Positions 2-26,592 of a stretch of 29,078 nt of DNA are shown here, piece after piece. Every line of letters starts with the position of its first letter. Position 1 is the stretch's first letter. This DNA is from a virus: positions 1 through 29,078 of the IMG/VR virus record IMGVR_UViG_3300014501_000056; one strand, given 5' to 3'. The notes under the pieces are model-generated. The model did not search any database. It saw only the letters and a program-made list of their open reading frames with translations, and was not told the origin of the DNA. The position numbers and the translations under genes were made by a program.

Positions 2-469
2 CTCACTAAAAGCTTTGCCAGTTTGGCGAATCTGGGCTCTCCCGCGGGCGGCGGCGGCGGCGGCGCGCTCTCGGGCATTGCCGGATTGCTAGCTAAATTG
101 TTCGGCATGGGCGGCGGCGCGGGCGGCGCGGGGGGCGCGACCACGGCGGCTGCAGGCGGCGGCGGAGGAGACCTTCTTGCCTTTGCCGGGGGCGGCGACG
201 CTACGCCGGGATCCAGTTTCATTTCCGGAGAAGCCGGCGCGGAACGCGTTGACCTGACGCGCGGCGGCGGCGCCCGCATTACTCCGCTGGGGTCAAAGAC
301 CGGTGGCGACACTGTGCAAAATTACGATATGCGCGGCGCAGTCGTGACCGATGACCTGCTGCGCAAAGCCGAAGCCGCGCAGATGATGCAGCAGAGCGAA
401 CAGCGGGCCACGGCGCGAGCAGTCAGCATGTCGCAAGAAATTTCGAAGCGTAGCCGCCCAGCGAGATGA
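2..469 (+). CDS. Phage tail tape measure protein, C-terminal part
   Basis: The reading frame is open to the left edge, so only the last ~155 residues are present. It is extremely glycine-rich (residues ~15-60), then has the block SGEAGAERVDLTRGGGARI, typical of the C-terminal end of tape measure proteins of long-tailed phages. The protein sets tail length and is ejected ahead of the DNA. It is followed directly by tail tip genes, the normal order in lambda-like and gene-transfer-agent-like tails. The last ~45 residues (YDMRGAVVTDDLLRKAEAAQ and on) recur almost unchanged in two small proteins at 25.7-26.4 kb, which is not expected for this family. The gene ends nine bases before a hairpin repeat that may act as terminator. 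Confidence 0.8.
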   Translation, partial: LTKSFASLANLGSPAGGGGGGALSGIAGLLAKLFGMGGGAGGAGGATTAAAGGGGGDLLAFAGGGDATPGSSFISGEAGAERVDLTRGGGARITPLGSKTGGDTVQNYDMRGAVVTDDLLRKAEAAQMMQQSEQRATARAVSMSQEISKRSRPAR

Positions 470-4775: not shown

Positions 4776-5744
4776 ATGTCTAAGACTGTTCTCGCCGTCA
4801 GCGAAGTGGCCGCCGGGCTGGCTCTGGCCTTGACTGGCTTCGGAGTGATTGCCCTGCCCTGGGCTTTGAGCGCGGGCGTGCTCAGCGCCATGGGCGCGAT
4901 CGGCGTCAGCGCTGGCATTACCGGCGTCTTCGGCTTGCTGCAGCCGCTGCTCAATCCCAATGACAACAGCGTTCCGGGCTCGCAGCAGAACTCGCAAGAG
5001 TCGGCCGCTTACCGCCGGGTGATCTATGGCTACATGGAAGTGGGCGGCGTGCTCACGTTCGATAACGTCCCTTCAGGGGATGGCAACTTCCAGCTCAACG
5101 GGCTCGATGCCGAGTGGCGCCACCAGATCTACACCATTGCCGGGCACCAGATCACGAGCTTTGGCAAAGGCGGCGTGCTTTCCGTCATCATCGATGGCGT
5201 GCCGTATCAGTTGACGCAGGTCCTCAGCGGCGCGGGGGTGGGCGGCTACATTCCGACCATTAACAACATGCCGTATGGCGGCCACGCGCAGTACAGCGGC
5301 CTGCCGACACACATTTATTTTGAATTCGATCTCGGCAATCCCGCGGAGACTTCCGCATTCCCCAATCTTGCCCTGGCCTGCCCCAGCACATGGACTGCCG
5401 CCTGCATTCAGCGCGGACGGGCCAAAGTGCATGTCGCCATGCAGTGGGACCAGCAGGCGGACGGCTCGCTGATTGGCAGCAGCACCAATCTTTCAGTGTC
5501 ATCGCCGGTTTTTGTGAATGGGCGGGTGCCCAGCTTCCGCTTTCAGGTTACGGGCGTGCCCGTCATCGACACGCGCACGGGTCTGGTGGCGGCGAATCCC
5601 TCCAACCCGGCGCTGTGCATTTATGACTACCTCACCAACGCGGATTACGGCCTGGGATGCAATCCCGCGACCATCGACATTCCCTCGGTGAACGCCGCCG
5701 CCAACATTTGCGAAGAGCAAGTCACCGTCTTCATCGGCGGGTGA
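4776..5744 (+). CDS. gpJ-like tail hub/host specificity protein, N-terminal half
   Basis: 322 residues. After a hydrophobic N-terminus (residues ~1-60, LLQPLLNPNDNSVPGSQQNS) it has YRRVIYGYMEVGGVLTF, DAEWRHQIYTIAGHQI, then GRAKVHVAMQWD...FVNGRVPSFRFQVTGVPVIDTRTG and NPALCIYDYLTNADYGLG, all marks of the lambda gpJ / GTA gp15-like hub family. It stops at ANICEEQVTVFIGG. In the intact family the chain would continue directly into a block like YxCNGVFD, here found in the next gene at about residue 175. So this is one half of a split protein. Confidence 0.75.
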   Translation: MSKTVLAVSEVAAGLALALTGFGVIALPWALSAGVLSAMGAIGVSAGITGVFGLLQPLLNPNDNSVPGSQQNSQESAAYRRVIYGYMEVGGVLTFDNVPSGDGNFQLNGLDAEWRHQIYTIAGHQITSFGKGGVLSVIIDGVPYQLTQVLSGAGVGGYIPTINNMPYGGHAQYSGLPTHIYFEFDLGNPAETSAFPNLALACPSTWTAACIQRGRAKVHVAMQWDQQADGSLIGSSTNLSVSSPVFVNGRVPSFRFQVTGVPVIDTRTGLVAANPSNPALCIYDYLTNADYGLGCNPATIDIPSVNAAANICEEQVTVFIGG

Positions 5745-5810
5745 GGCGGTTTCTAGCTCTTAGCTTTCAGTTAAACCAAAAAGCACTGCCAACAGGTTGG
5801 AGTTAAACAG

Positions 5811-7070
5811 ATGCCCACAGCTGGATGGAATTTTGTCGGCACGCGTTTGGGCACCACTGGGGTCGGTGCGTCGCAGGGCGTTTTTTATGACACCGGCATG
5901 GATATCGGCGCCTTTGCCGCTTATCCAATGTGCGTAGCATTTCAGATGTACGGCGATATGAGCGCTGGGGGAGCGCCATGCACTACCGTCACTTTGCAAT
6001 GGAGTTCGACGACAGGCACGTTGACGCCCATTCCCGGCAGCCCATCATTTAGTTTTCCGGCGTCGAATCTGGGTTTCGGTGAATGGGAGTGTAACAGCTA
6101 CCCTACGATTGGCCATGCTGCGGTCTATTGGGACGAAGGCGGAAATGATGTTGGGGGCTTAGTTGGCTCCGCGCCACCGACAGGCGTCCCAGCTCCTATA
6201 AGCGGTGCTGCGACGCTTTTCTTTATGGCGTCGGGCGGCGCAATTGGGCAAACTTTTAATTGGAATTGCGAGGACCTGCTCTACGGTTACTACTACTACA
6301 CGCCGTCACCCAACATCGAAGTGCAGGAAAACCTTTACGGCTGCAATGGCGTATTCGATCATTCGGCGGCGCGCGGCGATGTGTTGAAGTCGCTGATTGG
6401 GTCGATGGCCGGCACCGTGATTCCGCCCGGCGATCTCTGGCACGTGTTTGCCGGGGCTTACAATCCGCCGACTACCATCCTTACCGACGCCGACTTGCGC
6501 GACTCGATTAAAGGCGACTTCCGAGTTTCGCGCCGCGACATTTGCAATGGAGTGAAAGGCACATTCATTCCCAGCTACCTGCCTACCAACCAGACGCAGG
6601 CGCAGCCCAGCGCCTGGCGCTGGACTGACTTTCCGCCCTACCAGGGCAATGGACTGCTGGGCCATCCCAACTATATTGCCGAAGATGGCGGCGCCATTAT
6701 CTGGAAGGAAGCGCGCTTCGGCTTTACCACTTCTATCTGGATGGTGCAGCGCCTGGCGAAAATCGTGCTCCAACTTCTGCGCTTCCAAATCAGCCTGCAC
6801 CTGCCGTGCAAGCTGACCGCGTTTCCGGTGCAGGCCGGAGACACCATCACATTCATCCACGCGCGCTGGGCGGCGCTGGCCAATCCGCCGCCTACAACTT
6901 TCTTTGTGACCCAGTCGACTCTGGTCATTGAAAACAGCGAAGGCGTGCCCACCCTGGCCGTCGACCTGGTGCTGCGCGAAACCGATCCGTCGATCTATAC
7001 GTTCACCGCGCCCTCGAGCCCCACCAACCAGGGCGAGTACTCGAGCTACGGAAGTTTGGGAACGATGTGA
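5811..7070 (+). CDS. gpJ-like tail hub protein, C-terminal half, with novel N-terminal domain
   Basis: 419 residues; TTGGAGTTAAACAG gives a Shine-Dalgarno. Residues ~1-165 are a Gly/Ser/aromatic-rich beta-type domain that I do not recognise (NFVGTRLGTTGVGASQGVF; repeated Cys). From ~170 it continues the gpJ-like family: NLYGCNGVFDHSAARGDVLK, WHVFAGAYNPPTTILTDADL, FRVSRRDICNGVKGTF, EDGGAIIWKEARFGFTTS, QRLAKIVLQLLRFQISLHLP, and VQAGDTITF near the end. The upstream gene supplies the preceding part. The arrangement looks like insertion of a new domain plus a stop/start junction into one ancestral gene. Both products probably assemble into a single tail tip. Confidence 0.7.
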   Translation: MPTAGWNFVGTRLGTTGVGASQGVFYDTGMDIGAFAAYPMCVAFQMYGDMSAGGAPCTTVTLQWSSTTGTLTPIPGSPSFSFPASNLGFGEWECNSYPTIGHAAVYWDEGGNDVGGLVGSAPPTGVPAPISGAATLFFMASGGAIGQTFNWNCEDLLYGYYYYTPSPNIEVQENLYGCNGVFDHSAARGDVLKSLIGSMAGTVIPPGDLWHVFAGAYNPPTTILTDADLRDSIKGDFRVSRRDICNGVKGTFIPSYLPTNQTQAQPSAWRWTDFPPYQGNGLLGHPNYIAEDGGAIIWKEARFGFTTSIWMVQRLAKIVLQLLRFQISLHLPCKLTAFPVQAGDTITFIHARWAALANPPPTTFFVTQSTLVIENSEGVPTLAVDLVLRETDPSIYTFTAPSSPTNQGEYSSYGSLGTM

Positions 7071-8996: not shown

Positions 8997-9545
8997 ATGA
9001 GTTTTACCAACGTACTGAAAAAGGCATATCCGTTCATCAGCATTGCGGCTGGCATGGGCGGGCCGCTGGGCACCATGGCGGCGGGCGTCGTGGGCCGAGC
9101 GCTGAAACTCGATACGCCGCCCGCGGGCACCGCCGATTCGATTACCGCTGCCATCAGCGGGGCGTTTGCCGACCCGGCGCAGCGGGTGGCGCTGCAGGCG
9201 GCCGAACAGGACTTTCAGGCGCAGATGGCGGAGCTCGGCTACAAAAGCCAGGCTGACTTCGAAGCTACCGGAGAACTCGATCGCGCCAGCGCCCGCGACA
9301 TGCAGACCAGCACGCGCTCGCAAATTCCGGCGCTGCTGGCGGGCGGCGTTACGGTGGGCTTTTTCGGCTTGCTGGCAATCATGGTCTTTCATCCCATTCC
9401 GCCGGGCGCCGAAACCATGCTGAACGTTATGACGGGCTCGCTGGGCACGGCGTGGATCATGGTCATCACATTTTATTTTGGCAGCTCGGCCGGCAGCGAT
9501 CGCAAAACCGAAATCATGGCCGCCGCCGCGGGAGTGAAACCGTGA
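8997..9545 (+). CDS. Phage holin, 3-TM GTA-type
   Basis: 182 residues. Three hydrophobic stretches at about 10-32, 111-132 and 143-164. Between the first two is a helical region with QDFQAQMAELGYKSQADFEA and GELDRASARDMQ, and the protein ends near YFGSSAGSDRK. This is the pattern of the 3-TM holin family named for gene-transfer-agent release. It would permeabilise the inner membrane so the endolysin upstream can act. The Shine-Dalgarno AGGAG belongs to the heptamer repeat. Its stop overlaps the next start (GTGA). Confidence 0.75.
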   Translation: MSFTNVLKKAYPFISIAAGMGGPLGTMAAGVVGRALKLDTPPAGTADSITAAISGAFADPAQRVALQAAEQDFQAQMAELGYKSQADFEATGELDRASARDMQTSTRSQIPALLAGGVTVGFFGLLAIMVFHPIPPGAETMLNVMTGSLGTAWIMVITFYFGSSAGSDRKTEIMAAAAGVKP

Positions 9546-11827: not shown

Positions 11828-11890
11828 TGCTTCTAGCTGCTAGCTTCTGGCTAGAAGCAGGTTTTGATTGAAGCCAGGAGCTAGAAGCTA
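11828..11890. repeat. AGCTAGAAGCT heptamer repeats
   Basis: Two blocks in opposite orientation (CTTCTAGCTGCTAGCTTCT and AGGAGCTAGAAGCT). The second contains an AGGAG 14 bases from the response regulator ATG, rather far for an efficient Shine-Dalgarno. Confidence 0.65.
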
Positions 11891-11894
11891 TCCT

Positions 11895-12677
11895 ATGAAA
11901 CCATTCCGCATTTTGCTGGCTGACAGTTATCCCGTATTCCGGCTGGGACTGCGCACGCTGCTGGGCGCGCATCCCGGCTGGCAGGTTGCCGGCGAGGCCG
12001 CGAACGGCCGCGCGGCCGTCGACGAGTGCCTGCGGTTGAAACCGGAGCTGGCCATTCTCGATATTTCGCTGCCCGGCCTGAATGGCCTCGACGTGGCGCG
12101 GCGAATTCTGGAAGAGCGCCCGCAGCAACTCATTCTGGTGGTCACCGCGGTCGAAGCCGAGCAGGTAATTCGCGAAGCGCTGCAGATGGGCGTGCGCGGC
12201 TGGATCTCGAAAGCTGACGCCGCCGAAGACCTGGTCATGGCCGTCGAAGCGGTGCAGCGGCAGAAAACTATTTTCAGCACGCGGGTTTCGGAGTTGGTCA
12301 TGGATGGCTACCGCCGGCACGAAGAATCCAGACCCGTTTTGTGCGCAGCGGCCGATGCCGGGGCCAAACTGAGCTCGCGCGAGCGCGAAGTGGTGCAACT
12401 GATCAGTGAAGGCATGTCGTCGAAAGAAATTGCCACCACGCTGAAGCTGGCACTCTCTACGGCGGAAACCCATCGCAGCAACATTTTGCGCAAGCTGCGC
12501 CTGCACTCGATTGCCGAGCTGGTGCTGTACGCGGTACGAAACGGAATCATCGAAGTGCATGTGGCGCCGCCAAAGCTGTCAGCTTTCAGCTCTCGGCTTT
12601 CAGCACAACCCAAAACCGCTGTCATCCCGAGCGTAGTCGAGGGATCCGCTTTTGCGGGGCTGACAGCTGACAGCTGA
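11895..12677 (+). CDS. NarL/FixJ-type response regulator
   Basis: 260 residues. Receiver domain ~1-120: RILLADSYPVFRLGLRTLL with Asp10, phosphoacceptor Asp56 (ELAILDISLPG), Thr84 and Lys106 (RGWISKAD). The second acidic residue of the usual DD pair is Ser11. LuxR-type HTH ~155-220: LSSREREVVQLISEGMSSKE and ETHRSNILRKLRLHSIAELV. The last ~35 residues are translated from heptamer and TGTCATCCCGAGC repeats and are probably unfolded. No histidine kinase lies in the window. It would bind DNA after phosphorylation by a host kinase. It has its own promoter and probably forms a two-gene unit with the next gene. Confidence 0.85.
   Translation: MKPFRILLADSYPVFRLGLRTLLGAHPGWQVAGEAANGRAAVDECLRLKPELAILDISLPGLNGLDVARRILEERPQQLILVVTAVEAEQVIREALQMGVRGWISKADAAEDLVMAVEAVQRQKTIFSTRVSELVMDGYRRHEESRPVLCAAADAGAKLSSREREVVQLISEGMSSKEIATTLKLALSTAETHRSNILRKLRLHSIAELVLYAVRNGIIEVHVAPPKLSAFSSRLSAQPKTAVIPSVVEGSAFAGLTADS
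12573..12605. repeat. TCAGCTN heptamer repeat in coding 3' end
   Basis: CTGTCAGCTTTCAGCTCTCG and on, read in frame as the SAFSSRLSA part of the response regulator tail. Confidence 0.7.
12617..12655. repeat. TGTCATCCCGAGC dispersed repeat, half copy
   Basis: CTGTCATCCCGAGC..GTCGAGGGATCCGCT, one half of the element at 3939-4046, translated as AVIPSVVEGSAF. Confidence 0.7.
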
Positions 12678-16258: not shown

Positions 16259-16573
16259 GTGGAACGACGAAGCTTTTTTCGAATGCTGATTGGGGGCGTG
16301 GCGATGGCTGCCCCCGTCAGAACATTCCCCTTTCGCGTCTTCAGCTTCCCAAGCGAGATTCGGGTTGTGCAGGGGTTTAGCTGGCTCCCCATGGACGTGC
16401 ACCCCAAGATCCTCAGGGATATGCTATTGAGACCGGATCTTTTGGATCATATTGAGCCAAGCGAAGTCGTCCCCTTCATACGCGCTGCAGAGGACCTCGG
16501 TTGCGAGAGCTGCATCGTGGGGCTTCGCCGATTTCGGGAGGGGAGGCTGGAGGCTGTTAGAAATGAAAACTGA
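16259..16573 (+). CDS. Small protein with twin-arginine-like N-terminus (104 aa)
   Basis: GTG start three bases after the preceding stop. The N-terminus ERRSFFRMLIGGVAMAAPV has the twin-arginine pattern R-R-x-F-F-R and a short hydrophobic stretch, and its DNA is alike to the starts of the genes at 25661 and 26024. The remainder (DVHPKILRDMLLRPDLLDHI, EVVPFIRAAEDLGCESCIVG) is a helical domain that I do not recognise and that the other two lack. Export is possible but unproven; the hydrophobic part is short. It overlaps the next gene by 11 bases. Confidence 0.55.
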   Translation: MERRSFFRMLIGGVAMAAPVRTFPFRVFSFPSEIRVVQGFSWLPMDVHPKILRDMLLRPDLLDHIEPSEVVPFIRAAEDLGCESCIVGLRRFREGRLEAVRNEN

Positions 16574-17384: not shown

Positions 17385-17741
17385 CTGATTCACGCAAAGA
17401 TAAAGCCGTAGAAAAGTTCGAAGAGTGGGCGTTGCTCGAATTGTTTGGACACCAGCGCCTCGCCGGCCGCGTTACCGGAACAGCAGCTCGGCGGCGCCAG
17501 CTTCGTCCGCGTCGACGTGCCGCAGGATGACGGCAAGAAAAAAGGCTGGAAGCTGACTCGGCTCTACAATCCGTCGGCGATCTATTCCATTACGCCGGTC
17601 ACGGAAGAGACTGCCCGCATGGTCGCGCGCTCGATCACGCCCGAACCGGTCTCGCGCTGGGACGTTGCCGAGATGGTGAAGCAGTCGAAACTGAAGCTGC
17701 AGGCCCGCTCCTCCGGAGACGCATTCGAAGACGCCGGATGA
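17381..17741 (+). pseudogene. Conserved phage gene split by a +1 frameshift
   Basis: From ATG 17381 the frame reads KAVEKFEEWALLELFGHQRL-AGRVT and then becomes nonsense ending in TGA near 17529. The next frame continues EQQLGGASFVRVDVPQDDGK, RLYNPSAIYSITPVTEETAR to a stop at 17741. Together these match a phage family I know as 'FE-WA-LELFGH-R-AGRVTEQ-IGG-SFxRVDVP'. One extra G in ACCGGAACAG (about 17475-17480) explains the shift. It is either a mutation, a sequencing error or programmed +1 shifting. The first half overlaps the zinc protein by four bases. Confidence 0.75.
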
Positions 17742-17756
17742 AATGGCCTGAGACAA

Positions 17757-17801
17757 ATCCCCACCCTAAACGCCGAAAGGCGCGTTTAGAATGGGGCACC
17801 C
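17757..17801. repeat. GGGGCACCC half element
   Basis: TCCCCACCCTAAACGCC, loop, GGCGCGTTTAGAATGGGGCACCC: a single hairpin half without its partner, after the frameshifted gene. Confidence 0.8.
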
Positions 17802-18184: not shown

Positions 18185-18286
18185 AATTTCGAGCGGGGGA
18201 AACGCGCACCACTAAAAGGCCGTCGACAAAAACCCCCACCGCGACGGGATGGAGCACACCATCCCCAGGACCCGTGGGATGCGGGC

Positions 18287-18328
18287 AGGGCAGTCAGCAT
18301 GGCGCTGGCTGCCCTTGTTTTGTTTTGA
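18287..18328 (+). terminator. Probable rho-independent terminator
   Basis: AGGGCAGTCAGC, four-base loop region, GCTGGCTGCCCT (one G-U pair), then TTGTTTTGTTTT. It follows the RHH gene. Confidence 0.75.
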
Positions 18329-18332
18329 TTTT

Positions 18333-18458
18333 GGGTGCCCCATTCTAACCTCGGGTTCTTCGAGGTTAGGGTGGGGATTTTGTTTTGTGGGAAGAGTCAA
18401 GATCAAAGTCAAAAGCCCCACCCTAAACGCTGAACGGCGCGTTTAGAATGGGGCACCC
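18333..18458. repeat. GGGTGCCCC composite hairpin element, copy 4 (variant stem)
   Basis: The left half has an AACCTCG/CGAGGTT inner stem instead of AAACGCG/CGTTT; the right half has AAACGC/GCGTTT. The outer GGGTGCCCCATTCT and AGAATGGGGCACCC are unchanged. It lies between convergent transcripts. Confidence 0.8.
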
Positions 18459-19294: not shown

Positions 19295-20108
19295 CGTTTT
19301 TTCCTTTTTGTCGGTTGCGGATTTTGCGTTTCAACGCTCCGGTCAACTGGATGAGCTGCTTGAGCGGTTGCGGCAGATTGTGAATCGTGGTCCGCGCCAT
19401 GTGCTCTTGCGCGGTGACGAGTTCGAGATTCGAGAGCGAGCAGTTGGCGTGATCGCCGTCCTTCCACCAAATGCGGGCTTCCTGCCAGTCGGGCAGTGGA
19501 CCGTTCGCCTGCTCCCAGATCAGTTTGTGGACGTACTCCCAGCCGGTTTGCGGCGGCGCGTGCTGCTTGCCGGTCTTGAGCATCATGTAGTCGTCAACCC
19601 AGCGGAAGCTCCACATCGGCATCGTATTCAGCGAGACGTGGCCTTTCTTGAACTGCGTCTCCCGCATGCGACCACGATGCCAGCCCGGTCGGCGCATGCC
19701 TTTGTTGTGGGGAACGATGCCAGCTTGAAAACGATTCGCTATGCCGGAGGCCTTGAGGCGTTCGCTTTCGATGCGATGCTGCATCACGCGGAACTTCTCG
19801 CTCTTTGTGACGCCCAGCCGGAAGGCACGGTTGTAGACGCTGGACACCGGAAGGCCCAAAGCTTTCGCCACCGCAGGCGCAAATTCGTCCGGATAGCGCT
19901 TGCGCAGAATGGCATCACGCTGTTTGGTCCACACAACTTTCGCGCCGTGTCCTTCGGCCTTTTGAATGCCCAACACTTTCGCGCGCGAAGCGACTGCTTT
20001 GTGCGTGCGTCCGAAGACCTTCGCCAGTTCGCGGGTGTCGGTGATCGGGTAAAGTTCGCGCAGGCGGCCGTGCTCGGCATCCGACCAGGCTCGTTGCTGA
20101 TTGTTCAT
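19242..20108 (-). CDS. HNH endonuclease with N-terminal SANT/Myb-like helices
   Basis: The start ATG 20108 overlaps the stop of the radical SAM gene (ATGA); 288 residues. Residues ~5-100 contain two helix-turn-helix units (WSDAEHGRLRELYPITDTRE; AILRKRYPDEFAPAVAKALG) that resemble SANT/GcrA-like DNA binding. The C-terminal part has GWEYVHKLIWEQANGPLPDW and WWKDGDHANCSLSNLELVTA, an HNH_3 pattern: His, Asp-Gly-Asp-His, Asn, Asn-Leu. The middle histidine of the usual HxDGD is missing (WWKDGD), as in some phage relatives. Likely a free-standing homing-type or packaging-associated nuclease. Confidence 0.75.
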   Translation of the reverse strand: MNNQQRAWSDAEHGRLRELYPITDTRELAKVFGRTHKAVASRAKVLGIQKAEGHGAKVVWTKQRDAILRKRYPDEFAPAVAKALGLPVSSVYNRAFRLGVTKSEKFRVMQHRIESERLKASGIANRFQAGIVPHNKGMRRPGWHRGRMRETQFKKGHVSLNTMPMWSFRWVDDYMMLKTGKQHAPPQTGWEYVHKLIWEQANGPLPDWQEARIWWKDGDHANCSLSNLELVTAQEHMARTTIHNLPQPLKQLIQLTGALKRKIRNRQKGKNDAEEHDGRSAQSSVCRA

Positions 20109-21118
20109 GCGGCGGACTCCAGCTGGCCCTGTTTTCCATCCCGGCAGCCGAGCGCGTTGGGATGATAGTCGGCGCGCTCCCACTCTTCCCATGGGACGCC
20201 TTCTGGCCACCACGGCCAGTTGGTCGACGGCTTGTCATAGGCGCCAATCACCCAGCGCTGAAATCCCACCAGCTCGCGGGTGCGCACGTACGGCATGGGA
20301 TAGGGCAACGCGCCAAACTCGCGCAGCCGGCGGCGGCGGTGGTCGCGGTCGGCATGAGTCTCGCCCGGCCAGTAGCCGATGAGCATATACACCATCATGT
20401 GCGCGGGACGAACTCCGTATTTTTCGAGACGACGCAGCCCATCGAAGAGACGCTGCTCGTCGCCGCGCGAATCCCAGGCGGTATAAATTCGTTTCCGTTC
20501 CATGGAATCGTCGCGATAATCGACGCTCGCAATGGCCTCTGCAGCTTCTTCCGTCAGGCAGCGGCAATTGATGCCCTGATTGAAACTCACCCTGAACTGG
20601 CCCTCGCGGATCTCGCGAATGCGATCGCGCCATGCCGGCTGGCCGAAGAAGTCGTTATCAAGCAACAGCAGCTCGCGCGGCCAGGGATCTCCACGCCAGA
20701 TTTCGGCGATCGAGGCCTCCGGCCGCACCGCGCCTTCTTTCCGCGGCACGACGCAGAATTCGCATTTCAGCCGGCATCCGCGCTGGGTAAAGCCGAGCGA
20801 TTGGCGAAAGCGTGGATAGAGCGAGTAATCGAGCCTTGGGGTCACAATGCCATGCTGCTCGAGCGTCACGCTCATATCCCAACCGGTGCCGCCGATGATG
20901 GCCCCGGGATGCACTGTGAGCAGCCGCTCGGCCAGTGGCCGCGTCTTCTGGAAAATGGCGCTGGCATAGATGCGGTCAAACGCATCCCAAAACTGGCGTT
21001 CGAACTGCGCGCCGCAGCGCAACTCGACGTCGTCGCCGCGCTCGCGATGGTGCGCCGAGATGCGCATCAGCGCCAGGTTCGGCAGCTTGCCATCGAGTTG
21101 AACGCAGAGGATACGCAT
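20105..21118 (-). CDS. Phage-encoded radical SAM protein
   Basis: 337 residues. MRILCVQLDGKLPNLALMRI and the acidic loop up to residue ~100 look like a cobalamin-binding-type N-terminal domain; then GFTQRGCRLKCEFCVVPRKE carries the C-x3-C-x2-C iron-sulfur motif (Cys115, 119, 122). LLLLDNDFFGQPAWRDRIRE and NQGINCRCLTEEAAEAIA are radical SAM barrel segments. The substrate is unknown. Sequences of this type recur in phage genomes, next to replication genes. The start codon directly follows an octamer array; the gene overlaps the HNH gene by four bases. Confidence 0.8.
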   Translation of the reverse strand: MRILCVQLDGKLPNLALMRISAHHRERGDDVELRCGAQFERQFWDAFDRIYASAIFQKTRPLAERLLTVHPGAIIGGTGWDMSVTLEQHGIVTPRLDYSLYPRFRQSLGFTQRGCRLKCEFCVVPRKEGAVRPEASIAEIWRGDPWPRELLLLDNDFFGQPAWRDRIREIREGQFRVSFNQGINCRCLTEEAAEAIASVDYRDDSMERKRIYTAWDSRGDEQRLFDGLRRLEKYGVRPAHMMVYMLIGYWPGETHADRDHRRRRLREFGALPYPMPYVRTRELVGFQRWVIGAYDKPSTNWPWWPEGVPWEEWERADYHPNALGCRDGKQGQLESAA

Positions 21119-21237: not shown

Positions 21238-21392
21238 TCGTAAGCCTTCAATTCCTTGCTGAGAGCTTCCTGTGCCACCGCAATCAGGTTGGCCAGGCGG
21301 ATCCAGAAAATCGTGCGTGCGGTCTTTTCTCTATCTGTACCGCAGGGCTCACTTAACTGGTGTTCTAACTGCGCAATTTCGATTTGCTTCAT
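21234..21392 (-). CDS. Small helical protein (52 aa)
   Basis: MKQIEIAQLEHQLSEPCGTD, then REKTARTIFWIRLANLIAVA and a charged end (LSKELKAYE). GGAGAGGCAGC before the ATG is a usable Shine-Dalgarno, and the ATG overlaps the ATPase stop (ATGA). Not a family I recognise; a helical hairpin is likely. Codon pattern and coupling support it as a real gene. Confidence 0.6.
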   Translation of the reverse strand: MKQIEIAQLEHQLSEPCGTDREKTARTIFWIRLANLIAVAQEALSKELKAYE

Positions 21393-23266
21393 GCTGCCTC
21401 TCCATTCAGAAATAGAGCTTCTTTGTTGGCGGCGACGTAGCCGCGGCGTGGATCTACCAGCAGATTCTTGGCCCGGATCTCGCTTAGCCTGGCGCTGAAG
21501 CTTCCGCCGGGCGTGCGTCCCAGTGCGGCCGCGAGCTCGTCGATCGCGACGGGTTCACCGTTGGCTTTGATCAGGTGATCCAGAATCTGTTTGTGCAATG
21601 TCGCCAGCTTGCGATCCCACAGCTCCAACACCTCCGCAGTCGTACTCGGCGGGGTGAATGTGCCGAGATATTCGTGCACGCACTTCTCGGTCGCCTTCAC
21701 CGAACCTGGTTCGGGATCGATGAGCAGGCCTGCGCCGCGAACTTCGCTCAGACGGGCCGAGAAGGATCCCCCAGGCGTGCGCGCGCACATGGCAGCCAGC
21801 AGATTGATCGATACCGACTGCGGGTGATACCCGGCCAGGATGCCGGCAACCTGCAGGTGCAGACCGCCGAGCCGGATGTTGCCATCTGCGTTCGCATCTG
21901 CGTTGCTTCCCACGCTTCGCAAATTCGGCGAAGCATGGGGCACCCTCGAGATTTCCGTTGGTTCGGGCTTCGACGCCTGGGCGACAGTAGGGGTGGGATC
22001 ATTCATCGAGATCGCGCTATTGAGTCGGCTAAGCAGCGGCGTTAGCGCTCGTCTTGCCTGGTTGAATTCCCGCTCCCTGGTTTCAAGTCGCGTGTTCAGG
22101 ACCTTACTGAGTTCCGCAGGATTCGGGCCCGCGTCTGCCTCGGAAGTGATGATGTCGAGCTTGATCAGCATCTTTTCCGACTCGGCCAAGAGCGATCGCA
22201 ATTCGCGAATCGTTCGCGCCTGCTGCGGATCCGCTTTCGCCGCAGCTTCTGGCTTCTGGCTTCTAGCTGGGAGCGAGGAGCTAGAAGCGATTTTCTGCTT
22301 CAGCTCGCGGATCTCGCGTTTCAGTTCCTGCTCGCTGCGGGCTTTGTCTTCCGCCTCTTTGGGCAGGTCGGCGAGTTTGGGCAGCAGCTTGGCTACCGCT
22401 TCCGGCATCGGGGGCGGGGCGCTGTACTTTGCGGCTGCGCCGCTTTCCGGATGCCGCGTCTGAATGTCTCCTGACTTCAGCAGAATGCGCACTTTCGAAA
22501 TGGCTCGGCCGAAGGCGTAGAACTGCCCCGGGTCGAGCGTGCGTAGCGACGTCCGGAAGTCGTGCTTATCTTCTTTCGAAACGCTCATCAGGTCGGCGGC
22601 GCGGTCGACGTCGACGTCTTCAATCGTCATCCCCACCAGGCGGTTGAAGAGCTCGGCGCTGGCGTCTTTATCGAGCTTGGCCAGGCGTTGCGTTGCCCAC
22701 ACCGGGCAGAAGCCGCGCTTGCGGCCGGTGGTCGAGAGCGCGATCATGGCGTCTTTGCAGCCAGAAATGATTTCGCGTTCGGTCATCGAGCCGGCTTTGG
22801 GCGTCTCCTGAGGACAGAACTTGTGCGCCTCATCAATGATGACAATGAGCGGGTTCCACAGCGAGCGTGGCACCTCGAGCAGCGCATTCAGGAAGTCGCG
22901 CACCCACCGGCGCCGTTCCGTGGGGCGGCTGCGAAATGCTTCGAAGAGATCGCAGACGGCGGAAATTTTCAGTTCCATGAATTTCTGTGCCAAGAGAGCC
23001 GCGGAGCGGACGTCGGCCGGCGTCTCCCCGCCTTCGCCCACCAGCACGTAGCCAAACTTTTCCCGCAAGGTAAAGAATTCGCCTTCGGGATCAATGATGA
23101 TGGTTTGCACTTTGCCGTAAAGCTGCTCAGCCATGCGGCGCAGCAGCCACGACTTGCCGCCGCCGGAGTTGGCCTGGACGAGCAGCCGCGTAGTCAGCAG
23201 CTCGGGAATATCGATGCCAACGTTTTTGCCGCCCGGAATCACGGTGCCGAGAATGATTTTGGACAA
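21389..23266 (-). CDS. HerA/FtsK-like ATPase with duplicated C-terminal winged helix
   Basis: 625 residues, TTG start with AGGAG from a heptamer repeat. P-loop QANSGGGKSWLLRRM (Lys38, Ser39), Walker B LIVIIDEAHKF (Asp145, Glu146), and later ALSTTGRKRGFCPVWATQRL and DLMSVSKEDKHDFRT, all typical of DUF87/HerA ATPases. Residues ~310-460 are a helical linker that includes translated heptamer (22250-22290) and hairpin (21907-21945) repeats. Two related winged-helix units follow, each with RTPGGSFSARLSE-R and a LL-DP turn, about residues 460-530 and 550-620. A DNA-translocating motor in replication or recombination is likely. Confidence 0.8.
   Translation of the reverse strand: MSKIILGTVIPGGKNVGIDIPELLTTRLLVQANSGGGKSWLLRRMAEQLYGKVQTIIIDPEGEFFTLREKFGYVLVGEGGETPADVRSAALLAQKFMELKISAVCDLFEAFRSRPTERRRWVRDFLNALLEVPRSLWNPLIVIIDEAHKFCPQETPKAGSMTEREIISGCKDAMIALSTTGRKRGFCPVWATQRLAKLDKDASAELFNRLVGMTIEDVDVDRAADLMSVSKEDKHDFRTSLRTLDPGQFYAFGRAISKVRILLKSGDIQTRHPESGAAAKYSAPPPMPEAVAKLLPKLADLPKEAEDKARSEQELKREIRELKQKIASSSSLPARSQKPEAAAKADPQQARTIRELRSLLAESEKMLIKLDIITSEADAGPNPAELSKVLNTRLETREREFNQARRALTPLLSRLNSAISMNDPTPTVAQASKPEPTEISRVPHASPNLRSVGSNADANADGNIRLGGLHLQVAGILAGYHPQSVSINLLAAMCARTPGGSFSARLSEVRGAGLLIDPEPGSVKATEKCVHEYLGTFTPPSTTAEVLELWDRKLATLHKQILDHLIKANGEPVAIDELAAALGRTPGGSFSARLSEIRAKNLLVDPRRGYVAANKEALFLNGEAA
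21907..21945. repeat. GGGGCACCC half element inside ATPase gene
   Basis: TTCCCACGCTTCGC..GGCGAAGCATGGGGCACCC, translated on the minus strand as VPHASPNLRSVG in the linker. Confidence 0.7.
22250..22290. repeat. Heptamer repeat inside ATPase gene
   Basis: CTTCTGGCTTCTGGCTTCTA and AGGAGCTAGAAGC in 7-base steps, translated in frame in the linker (SSSLPARSQKPEA). Confidence 0.7.
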
Positions 23267-25062: not shown

Positions 25063-25650
25063 ATGGGTAAGAAAAAGAAAGAAGCCGCAGCTCTCAACGG
25101 CGAGATTACGGTGGAAGAAGTCCTGAAACTCTTCCCAGGCTTCGCCCGTGAGGATATATTGTCTGCCTTGCTGTTAGTCCTGGTCGATGAAGTTGCGGCG
25201 GGATTCATGGAGCACAAAGAAGACCCATTTTCGAGGGAATTCTTGGCAGCGCTGGAGCAGAATACTCGCACCCTTGATAGCGTGCTGGAAAAGGAATTTG
25301 GGGATGTGCTCGGCCCTGAAGGACGATGCATTGATTCTCTCGCCGTAAGCCTAGCCGTTATCAGAATTGCTGCTCGAATGTTGATCCAGGTTCATGCGGT
25401 CAGAAAAGGCGCGCAACTCTTAGCGCGCGAGAGGCATAAAAGGCTCACAGAGGCCTTCATACGACTGGCTGCATTATTCGAAGTGCACGCCGAGAAATGC
25501 GAACGATGTGCACCTTGGAGCAGATTCCTAAATAGCAAAGGGATTAAGCCGAGAACTCCTGGCTGTGAAAGAGGGGCAAGGATGGCCGAGGATTTGCGAG
25601 TTGGCACTTCCGAACTCGAGGCTCTGGAAGTGGTGATAGTGGCGGCCTAA
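25063..25650 (+). CDS. Hypothetical helical protein (195 aa)
   Basis: TGAGGTGAGAAA before ATG is a fair Shine-Dalgarno. EITVEEVLKLFPGFAREDIL and SALLLVLVDEVAAGFMEHKE start a helical domain; IDSLAVSLAVIRIAARMLIQ, GAQLLARERHKRLTEAFIRL follow, and CERCAPW is a possible metal site near residue 151. No family is recognised. It heads the operon containing the Tat-like proteins and diverges from the replication operon, the place of a lysogeny regulator or immunity gene, though no HTH is evident. Confidence 0.55.
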   Translation: MGKKKKEAAALNGEITVEEVLKLFPGFAREDILSALLLVLVDEVAAGFMEHKEDPFSREFLAALEQNTRTLDSVLEKEFGDVLGPEGRCIDSLAVSLAVIRIAARMLIQVHAVRKGAQLLARERHKRLTEAFIRLAALFEVHAEKCERCAPWSRFLNSKGIKPRTPGCERGARMAEDLRVGTSELEALEVVIVAA

Positions 25651-25660
25651 GGAGGGATAA

Positions 25661-25873
25661 ATGGACCGACGAAGCTTTTTCCGAACGATGATCGGGGGCG
25701 TGGCGACCGCCGCAGCCGTCAAAGTCTTGCCCGCGATCGAGCCGCTCAAAGATGTCGCCGCGCCCCAAAGCGAAAGTCGGCGCTACGATATGCGCGGCGC
25801 AGTGGTGGCGGATGATCTGCTGCGCAAATATGATGCTCTGATGAAAGCAAACGCAGCGAGGGAGGCGTCTTAA
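25661..25873 (+). CDS. Tat-like small protein with tape-measure C-terminal motif (70 aa)
   Basis: AAGGAGGGATAA is a strong Shine-Dalgarno. DRRSFFRTMIGGVATAAAVK is a twin-arginine-type signal (R-R-S-F-F-R) with a short hydrophobic region. After a short linker (LKDVAAPQSES) comes RYDMRGAVVADDLLRKYDAL, the same motif as in the tape measure C-terminus at the left end of the window. The product could be membrane-anchored or exported. It is likely cotranscribed with the next three genes. Role unknown; a decoy for tape-measure interactions is the hypothesis developed in the findings. Confidence 0.65.
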   Translation: MDRRSFFRTMIGGVATAAAVKVLPAIEPLKDVAAPQSESRRYDMRGAVVADDLLRKYDALMKANAAREAS

Positions 25874-25874
25874 A

Positions 25875-26027
25875 ATGCCGAACTGTCAAGGATGTTTGGT
25901 TTGTAAAATCGGAAACCTGTTTACGAATCTGCGGCTGGCGCTTCGGCTGACCGCCAGACATTGGGCCCATCATCATCGCACCTGGTATTGGGATGAAAGG
26001 GAATGGCGCGATAGGAAAGCGGGATGA
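25875..26027 (+). CDS. Small basic protein with CxxCxxC (50 aa)
   Basis: MPNCQGCLVCKIGNLFTNLR, then an Arg/His/Trp-rich segment (ALRLTARHWAHHHRTWYWDE). Cys4, 7 and 10 plus the histidine cluster suggest metal binding. It starts two bases after the preceding stop, and its stop overlaps the next ATG (ATGA), which makes a coupled gene likely. No family is recognised. Confidence 0.5.
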   Translation: MPNCQGCLVCKIGNLFTNLRLALRLTARHWAHHHRTWYWDEREWRDRKAG

Positions 26028-26437
26028 ACCGCCGACACTTTCTCCGAACGACGATTGGGGGCGTGGTGACCGTTGCAGCCGTCAAAGTCGCCGCGGCGAT
26101 GGGGCTGCTTAAAGATGTCGCTGCGCCCCAAACGGAAGACCGTTATTACGATATGCGCGGCGCGATGGTGACAGATGACCTGCTGCGCAAGGCGGAAGCG
26201 GCGCAAATACTGCAGCAGAGCGAACAGCGGGAGTCACGGCGCAGGGCGGAAGCGCTGTCGAAGCTGGATGAATTGCTGCACGAATACGGCTGGCAACGTT
26301 CAGACTTCAGAAGCGATCAGATTGAGCGCGCGGTGCAGCAATTATATCGTGCCCGCGAGCGTTGGCTGCGTCACGACCCAACATTGAAAAATTCGCCGGC
26401 TTGGATCGATCAACTATGCTGGGAGGAGTCAACTTGA
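26024..26437 (+). CDS. Tat-like protein with tape-measure C-terminal module (137 aa)
   Basis: NRRHFLRTTIGGVVTVAAVK is a better twin-arginine-type signal (R-R-x-F-L-R) than its relatives. LLKDVAAPQTED links to YYDMRGAMVTDDLLRKAEAA and then QILQQSEQR, matching the tape measure C-terminus nearly residue for residue, also at DNA level. The last ~70 residues (LDELLHEYGWQRSDFRSDQI, AVQQLYRARERWL) are a helical domain not seen in the tape measure. AGGAAAGCGGG is the Shine-Dalgarno. The stop overlaps the next start (TTGA). Confidence 0.65.
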   Translation: MNRRHFLRTTIGGVVTVAAVKVAAAMGLLKDVAAPQTEDRYYDMRGAMVTDDLLRKAEAAQILQQSEQRESRRRAEALSKLDELLHEYGWQRSDFRSDQIERAVQQLYRARERWLRHDPTLKNSPAWIDQLCWEEST

Positions 26438-26592
26438 GTTTGAGACGGAGAACTCGCTTCTGGCTCGGATGCATCGGTTTCGTGATCTGCGGGTTTGGGG
26501 CACTGATAGTTTGGCATAACAACCACGTCGCCGCCGCATGGGCTGCCATAGCCGCTGTGTGGGCATTATGTTTCGCAATCCGCGGTAACTAG
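26434..26592 (+). CDS. Small two-TM membrane protein (52 aa)
   Basis: TTG start at 26434, coupled to the preceding stop and preceded by GGGAGGAGTCAAC. SLRRRTRFWLGCIGFVICGF and AAAWAAIAAVWALCFAI give two membrane helices with a positively charged N-terminus (cytoplasmic). No family is recognised; location beside the Tat-like proteins suggests a joint membrane function such as superinfection exclusion (inference). Confidence 0.55.
   Translation: MSLRRRTRFWLGCIGFVICGFGALIVWHNNHVAAAWAAIAAVWALCFAIRGN

Follow-up and report, generated by a model that had tools for sequence, protein, structure and literature searches.

Why should a phage carry pieces of its own tape measure tail in separate small genes, each behind an export-type N-terminus? 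The question is raised by the window analysed here, a virus record of IMG/VR, 29,078 bases long, that starts inside the tape measure gene and has genes for the tail and for two tyrosine recombinases among its phage genes. The initial annotation took the small proteins at 25661 and 26024 for membrane-placed mimics of the tape measure tip that block DNA entry of related phages. Our comparisons show instead that three proteins of the window belong to a phage class in which a near-constant, predicted Tat-like leader precedes a variable C-terminus, and that this C-terminus often appears to echo the phage's own virion or packaging protein: mostly the capsid protein (MCP), the tape measure protein here, a terminase ATPase elsewhere. 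The tape measure case of the window is one instance of this putative leader-plus-echo architecture. The features on which the argument turns are as follows.

2..469, + strand: tape measure protein, C-terminal part (PHROG 10574 tail length tape measure protein, E=3e-4)
323..406, + strand: echoed tape measure motif YDMRGAVVTDDLLRKAEAAQMMQQSEQR, inside the tape measure C-terminus
16259..16573, + strand: third leader protein, 104 aa, GTG start, FPFRVFSFPSE-type leader
25063..25650, + strand: upstream gene, 195 aa, same rightward cluster, no family
25661..25873, + strand: leader protein 2, 70 aa, twin-arginine-like leader, short tape measure motif YDMRGAVVADDLLRK (25784-25828)
25875..26027, + strand: small ORF, 50 aa, between the 25661 and 26024 leader genes, overlapping the 26024 start
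26024..26437, + strand: leader protein 1, 137 aa, twin-arginine-like leader, long tape measure motif YDMRGAMVTDDLLRKAEAAQILQQSEQR (26147-26230), charged C-terminal tail
26434..26592, + strand: two-transmembrane ORF, 52 aa, overlapping the stop of the 26024 gene (TTGA, 26434)

The recurrence of the motif noticed earlier holds at both the protein and the DNA level. The tape measure C-terminus, which aligns to the C-terminal end of the PHROG 10574 profile and has a distal tail protein and others downstream, has the segment YDMRGAxVTDDLLRKAEAAQxxQQSEQR in common with the 26024 protein (25 of 29 residues, blastp E=5e-13), and the underlying DNA is identical at 76 of 91 bases. In the shorter copy of the 25661 protein, 15 of 18 aligned codons encode the tape measure residue (blastp against the tape measure protein, E=1e-5). 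Searched by tblastn with the 26024 protein, the record yields three places only, namely the tape measure gene and these two genes, and the tape measure protein is the top match of both small proteins among all genes of the contig. The tape measure and 26024 motifs differ at 12 of 87 bases and 4 of 29 residues (dN 0.08, dS 0.50), and the 25661 comparison gives dN 0.11 and dS 0.52; since dN lies far below dS in both cases, the copies have diverged mostly synonymously. Part of this constraint could date from time spent inside a tape measure gene.

The possibility that the motif is a generic low-complexity coil, which the initial annotation had named as grounds for dropping its proposal, is ruled out, because tape measure proteins of this type have the motif as their conserved tail. 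Those of L004, L005 and L010 end in it, those of L006-L008 end in a variant, and that of L011 has the form IDARGAD. None of the tape-measure-related contigs G001-G008 carries a leader gene, nor does a prophage region from Acidobacteriota whose tape measure protein has an IDARGAT tail, and the leader gene is therefore not tied to this tape measure type.

Some other features of the window may be recorded here. Its tail tip region (4776-7070) consists of two ORFs, 4776-5744 and 5811-7070, where L010 has one open frame of 724 codons, a possible frameshift or recoding. Between genes, at 480-600, 17635-17799 and 18212-18446, a GTGCCCCATTCTAAACGCG...TTAGAATGGGGCAC element seems to occur repeatedly in inverted copies. 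The ORF at 11868-12677 resembles a LuxR-type response regulator (receiver plus HTH), judged from translation only, and a HerA/DUF87-like ATPase (21389-23266) lies near a 337-aa protein with a cysteine cluster (20105-21118, - strand) that is radical SAM-like by eye.

How are the motif copies presented? In both small proteins they are indeed joined to a twin-arginine-like N-terminus; the two leaders have 23 of 34 residues in common, and leader protein 1 matches PF10518 at E=0.04, below the curated cut-off, and has AAA at a plausible signal peptidase position by eye. A FAD-SLDH (PF12318) identity of this protein was set aside, the match being below cut-off and probably leader-driven. Of the coupling to a two-transmembrane protein, the overlap of the 52-aa ORF with the 26024 stop stands, but no such partner is kept beside other leader genes. 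The location on a "lysogeny side" of a prophage was a guess resting only on the nearby integrase. Used as sole query, leader protein 1 finds no match in viral contigs or cultured phage records.

It was the third leader protein at 16259-16573, absent from the initial annotation, that opened the way to a wider family. The 16259 protein as query finds 19 viral loci, an alignment of leaders finds 45, and a second leader variant adds one further viral locus only; for this form of leader, the scans are thus nearly saturated. Once duplicates are removed, the set comprises 44 proteins from IMG/VR phage records, the window's three included. Their leaders of about 34 aa are followed by variable C-termini of about 36-113 aa, and most contigs have one such gene, G017 and G023 two and the window three. 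The C-terminus of the 16259 protein itself is unrelated to the tape measure protein and cannot be clearly traced; within its own contig it comes closest, weakly, to the end of what the gene immediately before it encodes (SCIVGLRRFREG compared with SCAYGLRQFIEG; p=0.07), and may echo a non-structural protein. In polymorphic toxins, too, a constant N-terminal trafficking part is combined with a swapped C-terminal part, whereas the C-termini seen here are short virion-protein-like pieces and not toxins.

The leader consensus, M-x-RR-x-FL-x-x-[LM]-[IV]-GG-[VLI]-A-A-x-AAVR-T-[FW]-PFR-V-[FY]-SFP, is nearly constant, and this constancy comes in part from how the set was selected, because FPFRVFSF also served as search pattern. 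R3, R4, F6, G12 and G13 are invariant in 44 of 44 leaders, in keeping with the RR-x-F-[LF] pattern of Tat substrates; the hydrophobic uncharged stretch that follows the RR motif had been required for detection. No family is matched more often than the TAT signal (TIGR01409 in 9 and PF10518 in 12 of the 44, E<=0.05). The common leader runs on as AAVRTFPFRVFSFPSE with no clear AxA by eye, most leaders lack an obvious AxA, and neither the common leader nor those of the three window proteins contain any cysteine, the residue that a lipobox of Ltp-type superinfection exclusion lipoproteins would need. The constant leader has no match in 50,697 cultured phage records, and in PHROGs, Pfam and NCBIfam these proteins meet no model of their own, only weak TAT signal and stray matches.

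What, then, do the variable C-termini resemble? A PHROGs scan of whole leader proteins matched no capsid family, and one protein matches Phage_capsid (Pfam) and TIGR01554 (NCBIfam) at E about 0.02; the capsid echo becomes visible only with family-specific profiles or own-contig comparison. When each leader-stripped C-terminus is compared with all genes of its own contig (nearly complete sequence for most carriers), the phage's own MCP is the top match for 15 of the 28 leader proteins in contigs with a recognised MCP, where 0.7 would be expected. The tail probability is P=1.3e-17 if cases are independent, a value too small by some factor because related leader proteins are not. With profiles of four MCP families, hmmsearch finds 13 of 44 C-termini at E<=0.01; of the remaining small ORFs in these contigs, 1,215 in number, it finds none. 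The initial annotation had looked to co-variation between small protein and tape measure protein for support; co-variation is present, the matched family being the phage's own in 12 of 12 cases with a known own MCP (permutation p=4e-5), but it involves mainly the MCP. Within MCP families the own MCP ranks better than chance would place it, at a mean rank fraction of 0.25, and 16 of 23 cases exceed shuffles at p<=0.05. Many single matches are weak, with 25-60% identity across 20-70 residues, and for about half of the C-termini no source can be recognised.

The echoes span about ten MCP segments in five families: the phrog_14242-like family A, P22 coat (PF11651, phrog_283), phrog_9953, Mu-gpT-like and phrog_264. 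An AlphaFold model of family A (pLDDT 65, moderate) matches HK97-fold capsids (Foldseek E=5e-8), and its echoed parts are the N-terminal arm (profile positions 2-70), 42-74, a region around 229-309 that includes the stretch WYMNVDQAAAxENL, and 340-373. Positions 229-277 of this family are echoed in both G010 and G011 (profile comparison E=1e-10). For the P22-type coat the echoes are 1-58, 187-206 and 366-393, the C-terminal stretch recurring in three phages, G018, G043 and G045 (hhalign E=2e-10). Other sources occur as well: the G009 leader protein resembles both its own MCP and an ejection protein (phrog_598), and the top own match of the G031 leader protein (L077:10001-10315) is the terminase, around the P-loop (contig-shuffle p=0.03). 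The P-loop of this terminase-like segment reads GGSRNGWKT, and the protein is possibly a dead ATPase mimic. In the leader proteins of L085, L102 and L038 (G039, G051, G019), RIDxxxLKYWG stands before WYVHPSQAAAWKDL, apparently a swapped MCP-like order, which suggests a patchwork of capsid motifs.

One could imagine that such echoes are simply the by-product of a mobile leader: a leader-and-promoter cassette would recombine into late-gene DNA and pick up whatever coding segment follows, so that the leader alone matters or the whole is near-neutral. The variety of captured MCP segments and the seemingly changed segment order of the G039/G051 type speak for this, as do the tandem leader genes of G023 (L042:9867-10987), which are identical in promoter, leader and the first 25 C-terminal residues and then diverge. 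Just upstream, at 9292-9426, 45 residues of one G023 tail are present again with 96% identity, so that duplication and replacement of a tail can be seen directly. However, all 44 frames are open, C-termini are kept at the protein level between the orthologues G030/G042 (dN 0.31, dS saturated) and G035/G040, and the differences in the tape measure motif are mostly synonymous; moreover, random capture should pick other late genes as often as the MCP. We therefore regard capture as unlikely.

The expression and placement of the leader genes bear on a further reading. A -10 hexamer lies 6-9 nt before the start, with no Shine-Dalgarno sequence, at 13 of 44 leader genes compared with 57 of 1,940 other gene starts, and for the extended -10 version the counts are 8 of 44 and 10 of 1,940. 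Such placement is a signature of an independent transcript, predicted to be leaderless, with an mRNA 5' end expected on or close to the start codon. The three leader genes of the window show no such promoter; all three have Shine-Dalgarno sequences and sit in gene clusters. Relative to the MCP gene, 14 leader genes lie on the same strand and 14 on the opposite one; in eight contigs the leader gene is convergent and 1.6-3.3 kb beyond the MCP, and in several (G017, G046, G052) it adjoins it. Might the protein be an assembly factor, anchored by its leader, whose virion-like segment draws capsid or tail protein of the same phage to the membrane? The own-family matches, the above-expectation rank of the own MCP and the genes adjoining the MCP agree with such a factor. 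It would, however, be expected to use one conserved interface, yet the echoes draw on N-arm, A-domain and C-terminal segments alike; half of the genes are oriented against the MCP, and independent leaderless promoters are unlike late operon control; we consider an assembly role improbable.

The leader genes combine an independent promoter (13 of 44) with late-region insertion in either orientation, as morons do. Morons of the HK97 gp15 type are likewise single late-region genes, often antisense, with their own promoter. We know of no virion-protein segment described for HK97 gp15, and in contrast to carriers of such morons most leader-gene carriers show no tyrosine integrase: such an enzyme is found in the window and in 3 of the 30 other carriers, in a search directed at tyrosine integrases only and with several or many of the records being fragments.

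Which hosts are concerned? The sole cellular match is a frameshifted leader gene in an Acidobacteria gp2 MAG (L143:9973-10331), preceded closely by a promoter-like TATCTT. A search of 396 other Acidobacteria genomes, which had no positive control at its threshold, gave no copy, and with this outcome a cellular origin of the leader was dropped. Because the only cellular copy lies in an Acidobacteria MAG, the host of the window phage and its uncultured soil relatives is probably, though not proven to be, among the Acidobacteria.

We can now return to the reading of the initial annotation, in which an envelope-placed tape measure tip mimic blocks DNA entry of related phages, a superinfection exclusion like that by Ltp or HK97 gp15. 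Capsid proteins do not cross the envelope during infection. Since they do not enter it, and since most carriers are not temperate-looking, a block of tape measure entry is not supported as a general mechanism of the class, whose recognisable C-termini mostly echo capsid and in one case terminase; with 27 of 30 other carriers lacking a tyrosine integrase, a tape measure block expressed from lysogens is unlikely to be the common function. For the window phage itself, the integrase and the tape measure pieces favour the idea, and Ltp of TP-J34 is, like the leader proteins with their predicted targeting, a small phage-encoded, envelope-targeted protein tied to the tape measure C-terminus, whose positively charged end it binds (PMC3952083). 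But Ltp is a lipoprotein with repeat domains that binds the tape measure protein and does not copy it, whereas the window proteins carry tape measure sequence behind a Tat-like leader and their relatives carry capsid sequence, so that the proposed parallel has the relation the wrong way round (PMC3952083). With the capsid and terminase pieces of other members left unexplained and the two-transmembrane partner not conserved, this is the least probable of the readings that we weigh.

A different kind of interference between phages fits the capsid echoes better in one respect. If the fragment were a dominant-negative poison of assembly in co-infecting relatives of the same capsid or tail type, with the leader keeping it away from the producer's own assembly site, fragments should match the own MCP family, which is that of the closest competitors, and so they do. 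A sibling phage's MCP is often closer to the C-terminus than the own MCP (for example in G009 and G045), which agrees with such poisoning and indicates, since the sibling is so often closer, that the capsid echoes are old and not fresh duplications. Interference with tail assembly by small phage or PICI proteins is known: Tai proteins are phage-encoded and act against structural parts of other phages, without a described leader or virion-sequence echo such as is seen here (PMC11364771). On the other hand, most carriers show no integrase, so that the producer would usually be lytic and would poison itself, and the terminase and tape measure pieces need separate explanations. We judge homologous interference rather unlikely, if still a contender.

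Our tentatively favoured reading, the front-runner in a field where none is likely, is that the leader proteins are membrane- or export-targeted decoys occupying host sensors of virion proteins. How would such a decoy work? The leader protein would be an early product, docked by its leader to the inner membrane or to the Tat machinery. Its virion-like part would serve as an epitope decoy, binding host proteins that recognise virion proteins in capsid-sensing and other structure-sensing defences; ahead of the genuine virion proteins, the sensors so bound would be held at the membrane or carried out as Tat "hitchhikers". The echoed segment would vary between phages because the sensors of their hosts differ, and the decoys of the window would imitate the tape measure tail. 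We favour the decoy because its components have precedents: the MCP is a proven trigger of CapRel, the Gol segment inside the T4 MCP activates Lit (PMC9712102), and signal-less proteins are exported by Tat via a partner with a Tat signal (PMC4273604). In the Gol and CapRel cases host defence proteins recognise the MCP or a short part of it (PMC9712102), and a virion segment would likewise be what is read here, but Gol lies within the MCP gene, whereas the leader proteins have a gene, and a leader, of their own. Against the decoy we count that tape measure proteins as an established defence trigger were not found in the literature surveyed, that the three genes of the window lack the leaderless promoter, that about half of the C-termini cannot be traced and that most leaders are without an obvious AxA cleavage site. 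The fuller proposition, an undescribed gene class in which an early leaderless mRNA, a Tat-like leader and a self-echo epitope together remove virion sensors from the cytoplasm by membrane capture or Tat hitchhiking, is possible but doubtful.

More generally, a literature search returned no description of a leader-plus-echo class, and what looks like an undescribed class of self-mimic phage proteins may have been described earlier, since few subscription journals and preprints were covered. If the architecture holds, a dedicated phage gene presents a fragment resembling the phage's own virion behind an export-type leader, and the type of fragment follows the type of capsid. If the leader proteins are indeed decoys, the virion segments read by bacterial immune sensors would become directly testable, since the phages would themselves be listing them, while if they interfere with relatives they would represent a new kind of phage-phage competition. 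Either reading would provide a handle on uncultured, probably acidobacterial, soil phages.
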